Shown here: in pieces, positions 14,169 to 36,862 of the stretch
Position numbering within the stretch: position 1 is the stretch's first letter
How the letters are laid out: every line of letters begins with the position of its first letter
Source: Hahella sp. KA22
GTDB taxonomy: Bacteria > Pseudomonadota > Gammaproteobacteria > Pseudomonadales > Oleiphilaceae
Reading direction: 5' to 3'
Length of the DNA: 64,000 bases
Assembly (NCBI RefSeq): GCF_004135205.1
Contig: NZ_CP035490.1
Span: forward strand, 1,426,001-1,490,000
Notes under the pieces: model-generated
Told to the model about the DNA's origin: nothing
The model's database searches: none
The model's input: only the letters and a program-made list of their open reading frames with translations
Made by a program: the position numbers and the translations under genes

Positions 14169-15410
14169 TTAGTAGGCTGGGGCGCTCTCGTACTGGATGC
14201 CTTTTTCGGCCGCCTGGGCTTTAACCGTTGAGTAAATCTTGTAGTCCAGGGTTTCTTCTTCTGCGCCACTGTCTTTGAGTTTCTGTTCGATAAATTCCTG
14301 ACGCTGGCGTGACAGCTCCGCAATTTGCGTGCGCAGGGCGTCGCGTTTTTCCGCTGTTTCCTTGATGACTTTCGCCTGTTCGTCTTTTTCCAGCGCTTGC
14401 AACGGAGCGGGAAGCGTCGCCGGAGCGATACTGTCCAGGTCGACGCGGCCGCTACTGATATCATCGACCAGTTCGCTTTCTGCGAGGAAATTGCCTTCGC
14501 CCGCGGCGGAAGCGTTAAAGGCGGCCCGTTTGGCCAAAGCGGCATCGGAGCTGACCGCATTCAGTTTGTCCGTGGCGGCGCTTTTTGCGGCGAGGGTCTT
14601 ACGTTTTTCTTCGGTGCCGTAGAACATGCGGGTCTTGTCCATTTCTCTGGATAGGGATGCCAGTTGTTCATCAAAGGGCGTGGCCACGGCGACGGCCTGA
14701 CCGGATTGCTCCACCTGGAAGAAGGAGCCCTGGTTCAACTGCGCAATGCGGCGCCATTCTGTCTGCGTAAAAGGATCCTCGCCCGCCTGGATGGTGTTGA
14801 CCACGATGCCTTTGCTCAGGGCGTCTTTCAATGTTTGCGGGTATTGCTGCTCGTTCTGATAGTCCATGTGCGGAGGCGCGTCGCCAACCAGAAAGATGAC
14901 CCGATAGCTGTCTTTGTCCTGACTCCAGGAAATCTTATGCACGGCGTCGAACAACGCCTGATTGACGCTTTCCGGGCCATCGCCGCCGCCTTCAGCCTGA
15001 TAATCCATCAAGGTCGCGTACATGGAGTCCAGGTCAGGGGAAAGGTCGGTGACGCGGGTGATATAGCTGTCCCCGCGATCTCTGAACGCCACCAGCCCCA
15101 TTTTGATTTCCGGAGCCGGTTGCGCCGAAGCCATGGTGCTGGCGATGGACCAGATGTTTTCTTTCGCCGCCTGAATCAGACCACTCATGCTGCTGGTGGT
15201 GTCCAGGGCGAACACCACTTCAATCTTGGCCCGCTTTTCACTGATCGTGGCGATCGGGCTGATTGTGGTGATTGGGTTGGTTGTAGTATTCGGATGAGTA
15301 ATCTGATTGACCGCCGGTTTCGCAATGGCGAGATTCTGCAGCGTAGGGTAAAAGGCGACCACGCCGGCGGTGGCGGCAAACAGGGTGAAGGCGAACAGTT
15401 TCGATTTCAT
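14169..15410 (-). CDS. von Willebrand factor A domain protein, exported
   Basis: The ATG at 15410 is preceded by GGAGGAAC and gives 413 residues; the open frame beyond it is noise. A signal peptide or anchor (LFAFTLFAATAGVVAF) is followed by a vWA domain starting FALDTTSSMSGLI, a MIDAS-type metal site (D-x-T-x-S) with further Asp in FLVGDAPPHMDY. The C-terminal third is a charged helical region (RDALRTQIAELSRQRQEF). It is the last gene of an operon with a PspA-like protein and a membrane protein. vWA proteins in such stress operons probably act in envelope protein interactions; no specific partner is known to me. Confidence 0.85.
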   Translation of the reverse strand: MKSKLFAFTLFAATAGVVAFYPTLQNLAIAKPAVNQITHPNTTTNPITTISPIATISEKRAKIEVVFALDTTSSMSGLIQAAKENIWSIASTMASAQPAPEIKMGLVAFRDRGDSYITRVTDLSPDLDSMYATLMDYQAEGGGDGPESVNQALFDAVHKISWSQDKDSYRVIFLVGDAPPHMDYQNEQQYPQTLKDALSKGIVVNTIQAGEDPFTQTEWRRIAQLNQGSFFQVEQSGQAVAVATPFDEQLASLSREMDKTRMFYGTEEKRKTLAAKSAATDKLNAVSSDAALAKRAAFNASAAGEGNFLAESELVDDISSGRVDLDSIAPATLPAPLQALEKDEQAKVIKETAEKRDALRTQIAELSRQRQEFIEQKLKDSGAEEETLDYKIYSTVKAQAAEKGIQYESAPAY

Positions 15411-31691: not shown

Positions 31692-31852
31692 GCGAGCAGA
31701 CTCATCTCCTAACTTATTGGGAATAGGGGGAGGCTACATTTGGATAGTTTTCAACAGGTTGCCGCGACCCTGGCGCTTGTGGTTTGGGTGAGGCGCTTTG
31801 TGCGCCTTGACTTTACAGGGGCGGCCATTTAGCTTACGCCCCCATTGCATCA

Positions 31853-32022
31853 GGTGTCCTGAGAACATTCGTTCAAGGGATGAAACGGGAAGTCGGTTTA
31901 AGTCCGACGCTGCCCCCGCAACGGTAAATGAGTCAAACGACAACCCCCTGTCACTGCGGATTCGCGGGAAGACGTTGTCGCCGGTTACACCACTCATGAG
32001 CCCGGAGACCGGCCTGACGCCT
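31853..32022 (+). promoter_or_regulatory. Cobalamin riboswitch
   Basis: The leader has the conserved core of adenosylcobalamin riboswitches: GGGAAGTCGGTTTAAGTCCG, then the B12 box-like GCTGCCCCCGCAACGGT, and the 3' conserved GAGCCCGGAGACCGGCCTG. It lies upstream of btuB and the cob genes. A possible promoter, TTGACT with TAGCTT 17 bases later, lies at 31807-31835. Ends are approximate. In gammaproteobacteria such switches repress uptake and synthesis when B12 is plentiful. Confidence 0.92.
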
Positions 32023-32142
32023 GCTTATCGCGTGGCATAGCGGAGGGCTTTGCCGGGATTCGTCTGACTCGACTCCTTTCCCTCTTTGCTTGTATCCGCT
32101 GCGCAACAATTGCATTCACTGGCGCTACTCTTTCGGAACATT

Positions 32143-34089
32143 ATGAGGCTTGTACCCCTTTTGCTTTTAGTTGGCTCACAACTGACCGGCGTTCGCGCGG
32201 AAGAGTTGGCGCCTGTTGTCGTCGAAGCCAAAGCTCCATCTGCGGATGAAATTGACGCGGAGTATCAAACTGGCTTTGTTAAGGTGATCAAGCGCGAGCA
32301 ATTTGACTCGAAAGTCGCCACCGTCGCAGACGTGCTGAAGAATGAAACCGGCGTGCAAGTGCGTCAGAGCGGCGGGCTGGGATCATACTCCGCTGTTTAT
32401 CTTCGTGGCTCCACCAGTAAGCAGGTGAACGTTTATCTAGATGGAGTATTGTTAAACGATGCGACTGGCGGCTCGGTGGACTTGAGCCAGATATTGCTGA
32501 GCGGCATTGAGCAGATTGAAATTTATAAAGGCGCAACGCCGATTCAGCTGGGCTACTCTGGCGTCGGCGGCGCGATCAATATCAAATCTCTTCGTTTCAG
32601 CAAACCCCTCAGACAATTAAGTCTTGGGTATGGCTCATTCAACAGTCGTAAAGGGGCGCTTACATTCGCCGATAGCGTTGGCGAAACCAACTACCTGGCG
32701 TCCCTTGATTATCTCGGCAGTGATAACGACTTCGAGATGCTGAACAACAACCAGACCGAATTTAATCCCTACGATGATCGTGTGGAACGTCGTCGCAATG
32801 CGGATTTCAGTCAGTTCAATGGCATGCTGACGGCGGAACGCAGCCTGTCGGATAGCACGGATTTGCAACTGATGGCGCAACATTTCAATAAAGATCAGCA
32901 TCTGCCTGACATCGCTAATCTGGAGAGCACGCGAACCAGTCTGGATACGGACTTCACTCGTCTGCAGAGCAAACTGAGCTTTGCCCGAAATACACAGGAA
33001 AATTATTCGGGGCGCATTTTCTTGTCCACACAAGAAGAGCGTTATGACGACAGTCAAAGCCGCATTGGCCTGGGCGTGCAGAAAACTCGGGCTGACACGG
33101 ATGTGGTCGGCGCCGAGTTATATGGCTCCTATTCAATCGGTCTGCATCTGCTCTCCGCTACCTTGGAGGCGCGCCGGGAAACTTATCAGGAAGAGGACCT
33201 GACCGGGCGCAGGCAAAAGCAGGAGTTCGAGCGTTTTACCTACTTGCTGGGTGTGCAAGACGAGTGGGCGGATGCTGAAGATATCTGGTTGGTGCGCCTG
33301 AGCGCGCGCCAATACTTTCTTGAAGATGAGACTCCCGCTGCATCCATGAGCGGGCGCACGGAGGTGGCTTCCGATTCCGCTCAATATCATTCATTGCAGG
33401 CTGGCGTTCGTTACCGCCTGACAGATTGGCTGTCGCTCAAGTCCAATGCATCCCGGGATGTGAGGTTCCCTCAGTTAGCGGAGAAGTTCGGCGATAGAGG
33501 ATTCTTCATTGGTAATAGTGAGTTGCACCCGGAAACAGCGTTGAATGGTGACATCGGATTTGAAGTGGGCGTAGATAGTTTTAGTGTATCTGCGGCCTAT
33601 TTCTATCGGGATTTAAAAGATGCTATCGTCCCCTCTTATGACTCAAGGGGAGTCGGCCGCTTTGAGAATGTCGGCAAAGCAAGGGTTAGCGGAGTGGAAG
33701 TGGACGCCATGTATCGACCTGTTCCCGCCTGGACGTTTATCGCCAGAAGCACCGCCCAGGACACAGAAAACCTGTCAGACGCCCGTGACCTGCACGGTAA
33801 ACAACTGGCGGGCGCCTACACCTATTCCCACTTTTTATCCGCCGCCTGGAGTATCGGGCGCATCACCACCTCCGTCGAGTATCGTCATGAATCCGGGGCT
33901 TATTACGACAGCGCTCAGGAAACGGAAGTGGAAGATCAAAACATTGTCGATGTGGTGGGGCGCTGGTCCGATGGCGAGACTACCGTTGAAGTCAGCGCAA
34001 ACAATGTGACCGATGAAGTCGTTGAAGCTTTTAACGGTTACCCTTCTCCTGGGCGACACTATTTTGTGTCTTTACAGCATTTATTTTAG
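32143..34089 (+). CDS. btuB: TonB-dependent vitamin B12 receptor
   Basis: A 648-residue outer membrane receptor with signal peptide (MRLVPLLLLVGSQLTGVRAE), a probable TonB-box region (APVVVEA), plug domain (LKNETGVQVRQSGGLGSYS; YLDGVLLNDATGG; GGAINIKS) and a beta-barrel ending in the expected aromatic residue (HYFVSLQHLF). It follows the cobalamin riboswitch, so corrinoid uptake is the likely role. The frame starts further up at a TTG, but the ATG at 32143 gives the signal peptide directly. Confidence 0.92.
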   Translation: MRLVPLLLLVGSQLTGVRAEELAPVVVEAKAPSADEIDAEYQTGFVKVIKREQFDSKVATVADVLKNETGVQVRQSGGLGSYSAVYLRGSTSKQVNVYLDGVLLNDATGGSVDLSQILLSGIEQIEIYKGATPIQLGYSGVGGAINIKSLRFSKPLRQLSLGYGSFNSRKGALTFADSVGETNYLASLDYLGSDNDFEMLNNNQTEFNPYDDRVERRRNADFSQFNGMLTAERSLSDSTDLQLMAQHFNKDQHLPDIANLESTRTSLDTDFTRLQSKLSFARNTQENYSGRIFLSTQEERYDDSQSRIGLGVQKTRADTDVVGAELYGSYSIGLHLLSATLEARRETYQEEDLTGRRQKQEFERFTYLLGVQDEWADAEDIWLVRLSARQYFLEDETPAASMSGRTEVASDSAQYHSLQAGVRYRLTDWLSLKSNASRDVRFPQLAEKFGDRGFFIGNSELHPETALNGDIGFEVGVDSFSVSAAYFYRDLKDAIVPSYDSRGVGRFENVGKARVSGVEVDAMYRPVPAWTFIARSTAQDTENLSDARDLHGKQLAGAYTYSHFLSAAWSIGRITTSVEYRHESGAYYDSAQETEVEDQNIVDVVGRWSDGETTVEVSANNVTDEVVEAFNGYPSPGRHYFVSLQHLF

Positions 34090-34120
34090 TTTCCTGTTTA
34101 ATAACTAAGAGGACGCGGGC

Positions 34121-35311
34121 ATGCAGCAGAGTATAGCAACAACGTTGAAATGGACGGGTTTAACCCTGGCGTTTGCGACGATGGCGGGTTGTGGCGGCGG
34201 AGACAGCGGTAATGGAGGAACGACGCCTGGTTCGGATTGGGTCGCGGTTATCGCCGGTGTGGCGAATGACTATTCATCAAGTGAAGTCTCGATTGCATCT
34301 GCTAAAGCGCCATACGATGTTGTAGAAGGGTATGCCAGCTCCAACAAGTCAGATATGTCTGTGGCGGCCTATGGAGACAGTTTTTATCGTATTGGTAGGC
34401 GTAGCCAGGATAATATCTCCAAGTATAACTATGACAGCCCAGGCGTGTCTGACTGGCAGTTCACCACCAATGATGATGGCGAGTCTCTGAGCAACCCTTA
34501 TGACATAATATTTGTTAGCGATACCAAGGCGTATGTGCTGAGGTACGGCGGTTCATCCATTTGGGTAGTGGATCCATCTGTTGCGTTAAGCGATGAAGAG
34601 CACTTCAAAACGGGTGAGATAGATCTGAGCAGCTACGATGATGATGGCGTTCCAGAGATGTCCGCAGGGGTGATATACAATGGCAAACTATATGTCGTCA
34701 TGCAGAACATGGACGATGAATTTGCGCCAGGAACTGCTTATCTAGCGGTAATTAATGTCGCCACTAATGAAGAAATCAATATCTCCGGCGGAGCCCAAAA
34801 AGGCTTGGCTTTAAATATCAAGAATCCTCATACCATCATAGAGCAGGGCGGCTCGCTGTTTATTGCCGGGCTTGGACGGTACGACAGCACTTTTTCAAGT
34901 CCTCCCCGACCTGCTGAGTACACGGGGGGCATAGAGATCGTAAATCCAAGCACCTATGACCACTATGTGCTCATCGACGATGGCAATGATGTCAGTCATC
35001 CGTACGGTTTGATCACGGATATGACCATCCTTTCTAATACGGTGGGCTACTTCAACGGTTATGAAGAATTCCAAAAAACGTCTCTTTATCGTTTTAACCC
35101 AAGTACGGGAGACGTTGTTGCTTCGGCGATCCCTGGCACGGCCAGTGTGGATTTACGTTCAATCGCCGCCAGTCCAACGGGCGAATTGTGGTTTGGCGTC
35201 GGTGGAGCAAATCCTGACTTGGTTATCGCTAACACATCGACTGAAACCATCATCAAAACTATCGGCGTTGATAAAAATCCAGCAAAAATAGTTTTCGCTG
35301 AAAAAGACTGA
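34121..35311 (+). CDS. Propeller-like lipoprotein in the B12 uptake operon
   Basis: A 396-residue lipoprotein, lipobox ATMAGC followed by a Gly/Thr linker. The body shows repeated blocks of the form x-Y-V-L/V-x-Y/P-x2-x-S-IWVVDP and LYVVMQNMDD, SLFIAGLGRYDS, GELWFGVGGANPD, each ending in a short strand pair, as expected for a beta-propeller (YncE/quinoprotein-like). It lies between btuB and cobQ, 31 bases from btuB. By analogy with BtuG of Bacteroides, a propeller lipoprotein that partners BtuB, it may be a surface corrinoid-binding component (inference). Confidence 0.75.
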   Translation: MQQSIATTLKWTGLTLAFATMAGCGGGDSGNGGTTPGSDWVAVIAGVANDYSSSEVSIASAKAPYDVVEGYASSNKSDMSVAAYGDSFYRIGRRSQDNISKYNYDSPGVSDWQFTTNDDGESLSNPYDIIFVSDTKAYVLRYGGSSIWVVDPSVALSDEEHFKTGEIDLSSYDDDGVPEMSAGVIYNGKLYVVMQNMDDEFAPGTAYLAVINVATNEEINISGGAQKGLALNIKNPHTIIEQGGSLFIAGLGRYDSTFSSPPRPAEYTGGIEIVNPSTYDHYVLIDDGNDVSHPYGLITDMTILSNTVGYFNGYEEFQKTSLYRFNPSTGDVVASAIPGTASVDLRSIAASPTGELWFGVGGANPDLVIANTSTETIIKTIGVDKNPAKIVFAEKD

Positions 35312-35371
35312 CGTGCTCGTGCGTGCGCCTGTTTCAGTGAGCTGTTTTGTTCTAGAAGGAAGTCTATCTGG

Positions 35372-36862
35372 ATGACCAAGAGTACGCTCATGATCCAGGG
35401 AACCACTTCCGACGCTGGCAAAAGCACACTCGTCACCGCGATATGCCGCAGTCTGTTGCGGCGTGGCGTGAAAGTGGCGCCGTTCAAGCCACAGAATATG
35501 GCGCTGAACAGCGCCGTAACGGTGGACGGTGGTGAGATTGGGCGGGCGCAGGCGGTGCAGGCGCAGGCCTGTGGCCTGCAGCCGCATACGGACATGAACC
35601 CAGTGTTGTTGAAGCCCAATACGGATATTGGCGCGCAAGTCATCATTCATGGTAAAGCCCGCGCCAACATGGATGCGGTGGCCTATCACGACTACAAACG
35701 CACCGCCATGCAGGCGGTGCTGGAATCTTTTCAACGACTCTCCTCCGCTTACGATGCGGTTCTGGTTGAGGGCGCAGGCTCGCCGGCGGAGATTAACCTG
35801 CGCGATCGAGATATCGCCAATATGGGGTTTGCGGAAGCGGTCGACTGCCCGGTTATCCTGATTGCCGATATTGACCGGGGGGGCGTGTTCGCTCATTTGG
35901 TCGGCACATTGGCTTTATTGAGCGAAAGTGAACAGCGACGGGTTCGCGGCTTTGTCATCAACCGTTTTCGCGGCGACATTGCTTTGCTTGAGCCGGGACT
36001 CCGGTGGCTGGAGGAATATACCGGCAAGCCCGTGTTGGGAGTGTTGCCTTATCTGAATGGCCTGCATCTGGAAGCGGAAGACGCCTTGCCGCGGGAAGCT
36101 ATCGTTAAGTCTGGCGCGACGCTTAAAGTTATCGCACCCTCCTTGCCCCGAATCAGTAATCACACGGACTTTGACCCGCTGCGGTTACACCCGCAGGTGG
36201 ACTTTCAGTTTATCGGGCCGGGCCAGTCGCCGCCGTCAGCTGATCTCATTATTCTTCCTGGCTCCAAATCCGTACGCAACGACCTGCAGTGGTTGCGCGA
36301 AAATGGCTGGGAAGAGGCTATTCGCAAGCACCTGCGTTATGGCGGCCGGGTTATCGGTATTTGCGGCGGCTACCAGATGCTGGGACGTAGCATCGCCGAC
36401 CCCCATGGCCTGGAAGGCGTTGCTGGAGAGAGCGTTGGCCTGGGATGGCTGGAGATCGCCACGACTCTGGAGCCGGAAAAGCAATTGCGGCGAGTGGAAG
36501 GGCGCCTTTGGTTGGATGACGCTCGGATTACCGGCTATGAGATTCATGCTGGAGTGACTCGCTGCGCAGCGTCGCAAACGTCGGCGGTGCGTCTTGCGGA
36601 CGGGCGATTGGACGGTGTCGTCAGTGATGATAATCAGGTGCTGGGGCTGTATCTGCATGGACTTTTCGAAAGCCCGCAGTCTTTGGCGGCGCTATTGCGC
36701 TGGGCGGGCCTGAACGAAGTGCAACACCTGGATTACGATGCTTTACGAGAAGCTGACATAAATCGCCTGGCGGATGTCGTGGACCAGTACTTAAACTGGG
36801 ACGAAATCGCAGGGTTTCTACAGGTAGGGCCAAACAGCGGCGACAGGGAGAGCAGGGCGTGA
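35372..36862 (+). CDS. cobQ: Cobyric acid synthase
   Basis: A 496-residue enzyme amidating corrin side chains with glutamine and ATP. The N-terminal dethiobiotin-synthase-like domain has the P-loop [15 protein letters not shown] and [10 protein letters not shown]; the C-terminal glutaminase domain has the nucleophile Cys in [13 protein letters not shown] and later [10 protein letters not shown]. The stop overlaps the start of cobU by four bases. Confidence 0.96.

Follow-up and report, generated by a model that had tools for sequence, protein, structure and literature searches.

In Hahella sp. KA22, a marine gammaproteobacterium whose genome (G000) is a single contig of 6.96 Mb, a cobalamin riboswitch is followed on the plus strand by genes for a BtuB-type TonB-dependent receptor, a lipoprotein with a predicted propeller fold, and the cobyric acid synthase CobQ (Table 1; positions are those of the window, the whole 64,000-nucleotide stretch of DNA that was analysed). 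A genome-wide riboswitch search recovered the same site, 31835-32031. The receptor and lipoprotein genes are separated by 31 nt and the lipoprotein and cobQ genes by 60 nt, and in a consensus scan no candidate for a plus-strand terminator turned up in the stretch from the receptor gene to cobQ, so a single riboswitch-controlled operon is the simplest reading of the sequence; cobU, cobT, cobS and cobC follow cobQ according to our own reading of the genes. An earlier note on this DNA had placed a lipoprotein between a btuB-type gene and cobQ, directly behind the receptor and under a B12 riboswitch, and the open reading frame, its lipobox, the cobQ match above cut-off and the riboswitch were all recovered. 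For the receptor, ATG 32143 is a likelier start than the listed TTG, because a signal peptide reads from this ATG.

Table 1. Features of the receptor-lipoprotein-cobQ locus, with positions in the window
Feature	Position	Strand	Basis or remark
Cobalamin riboswitch, operon head	31835..32031	+	RF00174, Rfam cmscan 103.2 bits (gathering score 31.5)
BtuB-type TonB-dependent receptor	32143..34089	+	Pfam plug and barrel; listed ORF from TTG 32086
Propeller lipoprotein, proposed B12-capturing lid	34121..35311	+	ATG start, 396 aa
Lipoprotein signal peptide, lipobox MAG and Cys24 (+2 residue Gly)	34121..34192	+	Sequence
Gly/Ser/Asn-rich tether, residues 24-39	34190..34237	+	Residues 24-31 of low model confidence
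Predicted seven-bladed propeller, residues 40-396	34238..35308	+	28 strands in model
Circular permutation point of L022 and L023, codons 117/118	34469..34474	+	Between blades 2 and 3
cobQ, cobyric acid synthase, next operon gene	35372..36862	+	NCBIfam PRK00784 679.8 bits (cut-off 273); TIGR00313 501.5 bits, above cut-off

The KA22 genome also seems, from the gene names as we read them, to carry a cob biosynthesis operon; the strain thus apparently makes B12, and scavenging of the vitamin may therefore not be essential to it. Further cobalamin riboswitches were found on the same contig (C1) at 14641-14852 and 6951979-6952190, which have equal scores and lie near opposite contig ends, and at two additional loci (L148 and L149). 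Reading the gene names likewise, one of these riboswitches precedes btuF/C/D-like genes and another ribonucleotide reductase genes.

The propeller lipoprotein, called the lid hereafter for the role proposed below, is not a chance reading frame, as judged from a dN of 0.029 against a dS of 0.357 in comparison with a 94% identical ortholog and from its conservation far outside the genus. The lipidation cysteine, Cys24, is invariant in 10/10 rows of alignment A1. The AlphaFold2 model, computed from a 72-row alignment, reached a mean pLDDT of 94.8 and a pTM of 0.92, with pLDDT <50 for model residues 1-8, i.e. residues 24-31 of the protein. Following the order of the strands in this model, we read seven blades of four strands each, with the C-terminal strand closing blade 1, so that the propeller-like character suspected in the earlier note was retained upon fold prediction.

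A net charge of -29 was calculated for the lid, close to the family median of -30, while three BtuG proteins range from -15 to -19; this acidity fits a BtuG-like surface, but may also reflect salt adaptation or a marine proteome. A single conserved face of the propeller had been expected, but the loops of the putative binding face did not prove more conserved than the opposite face (1.91 versus 1.81 bits, p = 0.29). By a post hoc look, strongly conserved polar residues (D50, S77, D78, R93, N125, Q195, D286 and D287) are located in the b-c and d-a loops, and the conserved P152, F162 and T215 sit on the opposite face.

Comparison of the lid model with the solved structures in the PDB placed BtuG, the B12-capturing lipoprotein of Bacteroides, ahead of all other propellers. 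BtuG chains occupied ranks 1-13 of the Foldseek search (E = 1.4e-13 to 4.6e-12, 13-14% identity), followed by AztD at E = 4.0e-9, and entries 1-11 of the VIA-align search (Z = 33.4-31.9, rmsd 2.7-3.8 Å, 307-320 aligned residues, 13-18% identity), followed by 1l0q at Z = 29.9. At the sequence level the resemblance is marginal. Pfam DUF5074 (PF16819) matched the lid with 16.6 bits (E = 0.0041), below its cut-off of 27.2, versus 73.6 and 102.1 bits on two BtuG proteins, and a DUF5074 search of the KA22 genome gave no match. A phmmer search of the PDB chains with the lid sequence listed no BtuG up to E = 10, its one hit being a chance lectin match. When profiles of the lid family were searched against PDB sequences, BtuG appeared at best with E = 0.098 and 0.022, and the propellers 4a2l (7.4e-8) and 1l0q (2.6e-6) ranked above it, so that sequence alone does not single out BtuG. 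A direct hhalign comparison of the lid family with three BtuG sequences returned 94.8% over 337 columns, a pairwise value without a control or a database search behind it. As BtuG reference we used the plasmid-borne L150, which has the same sequence as chain 8bmx_D over 366 residues. For the pocket residues named for BtuG2 in PMC10404256 (W194, W272, Y316 and Y335), the low-identity profile alignment gave no secure equivalents in the lid.

Thus, it is the predicted fold, not the sequence, that points to a link between the lid and BtuG. In PMC6143338, where family membership is defined by BlastP at E ≤1e-10 and 313 gut genomes were searched, BtuG is called exclusive to Bacteroidetes. Because of its marginal similarity (13-18% identity, DUF5074 below cut-off), the lid is not filed as a BtuG here; the evidence supports a counterpart that would work like BtuG and has the anatomy of BtuG. 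The proteobacterial BtuG analogue that the earlier note had held possible is supported, with BtuG as the nearest solved folds, a BtuB-type neighbour, a B12 riboswitch and co-inheritance with the receptor. No literature description of a proteobacterial BtuG counterpart was found, most subscription papers and all preprints lying outside the search, and a scan of viral contigs for BtuG gave no match.

The occurrence of the lid was followed in three genome sets. Among 58 relatives, including KA22 itself, a propeller match was obtained in 13, of which 12 were real; the match in G027 was rejected as a 55-residue signal-peptide match in a 12-kb region with no riboswitch or receptor match. The receptor type (E ≤1e-40) was found in 12/58 relatives, and these are the same 12 genomes. 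In a class sample of 369 genomes, own genome included, 22 carry the propeller. When the family alignment was used for a pattern scan over 84,980 species genomes, 99 lid relatives were obtained, and the 80 best were retained; since the scan is pattern-based these counts are lower bounds, and the same scan with the window protein alone returned no relative. The gammaproteobacterial carriers include Hahella, Oleiphilaceae, Alcanivorax, Saccharospirillum, Pseudoalteromonas, Catenovulum, Solimonas, Panacagrimonas, Granulosicoccaceae and others; outside this class, many records are titled Deltaproteobacteria or Desulfobacterales and one Bdellovibrionales, and many of the genomes are metagenome assemblies. 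For the lid alignment (A4), one permuted (L031) and three partial members (L106, L077 and L055) were omitted, and thinning at 90% identity reduced 76 sequences to 71, to which the window protein was then added.

A same-strand receptor gene precedes the lid gene in 74 of the 80 loci. In two others (L042 and L067) the receptor gene lies convergently next door, in L105 it follows directly downstream, and the remaining three (L040, L055 and L090) end at a contig edge, so that a receptor neighbour was found in 77/77 loci where the neighbourhood is visible. The largest gap between receptor and lid is 980 nt (L050) and the next 387 nt. An apparent receptor-lid fusion in L079 was rejected as read-through of a GC-rich frame. 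A cobalamin riboswitch stands before the receptor-lid unit in 71/80 loci when a distance of no more than 1,300 nt from the receptor is allowed, a limit of our own choice (70/80 with 600 nt); among the loci with at least 450 nt of upstream sequence it is present in 68/69, the miss being L029, and among those with less in 3/11. Of the positives, 43 were identified by Rfam and 28 by a two-block pattern, which had 0 matches when the plus strand of 513,108 bases of single-base-shuffled sequence was searched. Moreover, a riboswitch directly precedes the lid gene itself in L042 and L067 (cobalamin) and in L105 (AdoCbl-II), and L050 has a second one in the interval from receptor to lid, about 690 nt upstream of the lid ORF; in these loci the lid itself, and not just the operon, answers to B12. 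The convergent lid and receptor genes of L042 and L067 have one cobalamin riboswitch each, and the reversed order of L105 (936-3822, Bdellovibrionales) runs from the AdoCbl-II riboswitch through the lid to the receptor.

The lid of Hahella has a lipoprotein signal, a predicted propeller whose closest solved fold is BtuG, a dedicated receptor with which it is inherited jointly, and a B12 riboswitch. On this ground we consider it quite probable that it is the lid component of a two-part importer for B12 resembling BtuB-BtuG, a reading that requires the lid to be exposed outside the cell. Were it instead an inner-leaflet lipoprotein, it could serve as a periplasmic corrinoid or cobalt chaperone that accepts B12 at the receptor's plug side and passes it to BtuF. 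Such an orientation would follow the rule given in PMC12578637 that most outer-membrane lipoproteins of Pseudomonadota face inward, and no exporter is known here; a Slam search gave no match, but since no control matched either, it carries no weight. AztD, as the best non-BtuG Foldseek match, would suit a chaperone as well, but BtuG is clearly closer to the lid. The strict linkage of the lid to the receptor also speaks against the chaperone, and three further features of the family bear on the side of the membrane that the lid occupies.

Firstly, the members differ in their predicted anchors. By rule-based assignment, a lipobox alone was found in 50 of the 80 members and a CFI-type C-terminus alone in 19; no member has both, and 11 have neither. 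Among these 11, the rule overlooked the lipobox of L028, and L040, L077 and L106 are partial sequences. The CFI box is a putative sorting motif according to NCBIfam, and its letters were found in 18 of the 19 (L034, L039, L043, L046, L052-L056, L060, L061, L065, L070, L076, L083, L092, L093 and L098), with CVM in their place in L073. When ten long members were scanned with anchor models, L043 and L083 scored above the CFI cut-off, L054 just short of it, and L056 and L073 above the cut-off of a choice-of-anchor model; the other five matched no anchor model, though L034, L039, L060 and L065 carry the CFI letters. In some members PKD, Calx-beta and Ig-like domains flank the propeller. L038 (6234-7559) has no lipobox or CFI box, and its C-terminus resembles, in our own reading, a dockerin-type calcium repeat. 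These C-terminal sorting-type motifs and additional extracellular-type domains are not what a periplasmic chaperone would lead one to expect. The mutually exclusive occurrence of CFI box and lipobox may also help to reveal the function of the former.

Secondly, two loci encode circularly permuted lids. In L022 (6481-7728, the same place as L031) and L023 (913-2106), the equivalents of window residues 118-392 come first and those of 38-117 last; for L022 the two parts scored 751 and 237, whereas 200 shuffles reached 65 and 58 at best. The cut falls between model strands 7 and 8, and such a cut at a blade boundary of the predicted fold is what a closed propeller ring permits.

Thirdly, the lid gene differs sharply among otherwise similar Hahella operons. 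Elsewhere in the operon the window shares 83-100% DNA identity with L017 or L018, but the value drops to 52-68% in the lid gene (compared within 34080-35380), falling within some 60 nt before the lid start codon and recovering at the start of cobQ. Over the same gene L016 is 86-94% identical to the window, and L017 85-93% to L018. At the protein level, the window and L017 share 97.4% identity in the receptor and 95.6% in CobQ, versus 57.8% in the lid. Two lid classes thus stand over practically one receptor in four Hahella genomes, and we infer from the sequences that they arose by allele replacement. A difference confined to the allele of a single gene is usual for exposed proteins, and speaks against a periplasmic location. 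The exclusive anchors, the lid-only allele difference and the circular permutation all fit a lid at the surface, and the chaperone appears an unlikely explanation.

If the lid is exposed, it might nevertheless capture another B12-regulated ligand, for which a corrinoid precursor and a metallophore are candidates. The propeller lid XusB, a DUF4374 lipoprotein that binds siderophores and works with the receptor XusA (PMC13142918), sets a precedent. The partner receptor bears on this point. Against the classical BtuB model TIGR01779 it scored 139.4 bits, well under the cut-off of 599.7, and its profile found, among PDB sequences, BtuB1 (2.3e-52), BtuB3 (1.7e-49), XusA (3.7e-45), BtuB2 (9.4e-42) and E. 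coli BtuB (8.5e-41). With its AlphaFold2 model (pLDDT 87.1), Foldseek listed XusA in the first row and PqqU in the third, which with the profile rank of XusA between BtuB3 and BtuB2 would favour a different ligand. However, BtuB is closest both by profile and by VIA-align, in which the first 15 rows are BtuB of E. coli and Bacteroides (Z = 40.7-38.3) and PqqU follows at Z = 37.9, a tie with the last BtuB row. The receptor is therefore a BtuB in the wider sense, with BtuB proteins as its nearest solved relatives and folds.

In an unrooted tree of 28 rows with long branches, the partner receptors (support 99/99), classical BtuB (100/100) and Bacteroidota BtuB (100/100) formed separate groups; its rows comprised 11/30 classical loci plus E. 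coli, three Bacteroidota proteins and 13 partner receptors (12/80 loci plus the window), and the receptor alignment (A7) 51/70 eligible partner receptors plus the window. No propeller gene was found beside classical BtuB in the fetched flanks of about 1.5 kb on each side of 31 loci (0/31). Classical BtuB was detected at E ≤1e-80 in 42/114 genomes of a sample of the class, nine of them above the model cut-off. Mutual exclusion of classical BtuB and the propeller pair is no more than a hint: among the propeller-positive genomes, G000, G066 and G082 are listed without classical BtuB, and G109 has one.

The genes further downstream point to corrinoids too. In four loci scanned (L019, L021, L043/L084 and, in part, L065), genes for BtuF-, BtuC- or BtuD-like proteins or a corrinoid ATPase follow, with B12-specific matches that are all below the curated cut-offs. 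One long protein (L043, 8483-10495) joins a substrate-binding-protein half to a CbiS-like amidohydrolase half (NF038002, below cut-off), the latter suggesting corrinoid remodelling beside uptake. These transport genes in relatives, cobQ in the window and the cobalamin riboswitch on nearly all testable loci argue against another ligand. On the propeller side, DUF4374 is not among the Pfam matches of the lid to E = 1, and the 50 Foldseek and 50 VIA-align rows listed for it contain no XusB chain, which is no proof of absence. Altogether, a lid for another ligand seems very improbable. A last rival is a hydrolase- or isomerase-like propeller enzyme with corrinoids as its substrates at the envelope, which might for example remodel cobamides. 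In its favour, lactonases and nitrous oxide reductases appear in the lower VIA-align rows, and the CbiS-like match of L043, below cut-off, is encoded nearby. It can hardly be credited, however, with no enzyme among the closest folds, no catalytic constellation recognised by our judgement among the conserved residues, and a receptor as the fixed neighbour.

For the two-part B12 importer, which remains our preferred reading, the solved BtuB-BtuG system of Bacteroides described in PMC10404256 provides a model of action. When B12 is scarce, the riboswitch would open and the operon be expressed. The lid would be lipidated, carried to the outer membrane and exposed outside, where its flexible tether would hold it over the mouth of the receptor; in many desulfobacterial relatives, a C-terminal anchor would fix the lid in place of the N-terminal lipid. 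The acidic propeller may catch corrinoids at low B12 concentrations and then close on the receptor, whose loops would displace the ligand, so that the corrinoid passes to the receptor and is imported with TonB. BtuF-BtuCD, encoded elsewhere in KA22 and at the same locus in several relatives examined, would move it across the inner membrane, and the products of cobQ, cobU and the later operon genes would build the corrinoid, whether salvaged or synthesised de novo, into the cofactor.

Propeller lids for a B12 receptor have so far been reported in Bacteroides and its kin; most likely, about a hundred genomes of other bacteria encode them as well. We give an even chance to a broader view, namely that lidded B12 uptake is widespread in Gram-negative bacteria, with Gammaproteobacteria, Desulfobacterota and Bdellovibrionota owning a receptor-propeller pair that often replaces a solo BtuB. 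The lid would then get to the cell surface in the absence of the Bacteroidota export signal, using at least two different anchors, an N-terminal lipid or a CFI-type motif at the C-terminus. It would also tolerate permutation and be swapped over a constant receptor as a cassette of one gene, the pressure probably coming from phages, bacteriocins or competition for corrinoid types. If the lid family binds B12, lid-assisted uptake spans several phyla of importance for the ecology of seas and sediments. Some receptors now annotated as single proteins would then belong to a pair, and proteobacteria that live freely would possess a capture protein with which to compete for scarce B12. The system also makes two matters testable, i.e. 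the route by which a lipoprotein gets to the surface of Pseudomonadota, and how one receptor works with two lids of only 58% identity.

Among the known systems, E. coli BtuB resembles the partner receptor in being a B12 receptor under a riboswitch with a similar fold, but works solo, without a lid gene. AztD, a periplasmic carrier and chaperone of zinc, is likewise a propeller and the best Foldseek match outside BtuG, with an rmsd of 8.3 Å versus 3.8 Å for the first BtuG row. The XusA-XusB pair also combines a propeller lipoprotein with a TonB-dependent receptor, and differs in its ligand, a siderophore, and in its DUF4374 family. The B12-binding DUF4465 proteins, reported in PMC13398666 from eight clades and often encoded near PF16819 propellers, belong to another family than the lid. 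The closest parallel is BtuG of Bacteroides, represented by BtuG1, BtuG2 (BT1954) and BtuG3 (PDB 8bmy, 8bmz, 8bn0, 3dsm, 8okv, 8p97, 8blw and others). Like BtuG, the lid is an acidic lipoprotein with a seven-bladed propeller, as predicted, whose gene lies beside a btuB-type receptor gene under a B12 riboswitch, and the two share a short stretch around KAY...I..NP. Unlike BtuG, it lacks the Bacteroidota export signal, the lipidation cysteine being followed by GGGDSGNGG, with no lysine and one acidic residue, versus CMKWDYGEME in BtuG2; its receptor falls into another tree group than that of BtuG, and some of its relatives carry a C-terminal anchor motif or are circularly permuted.
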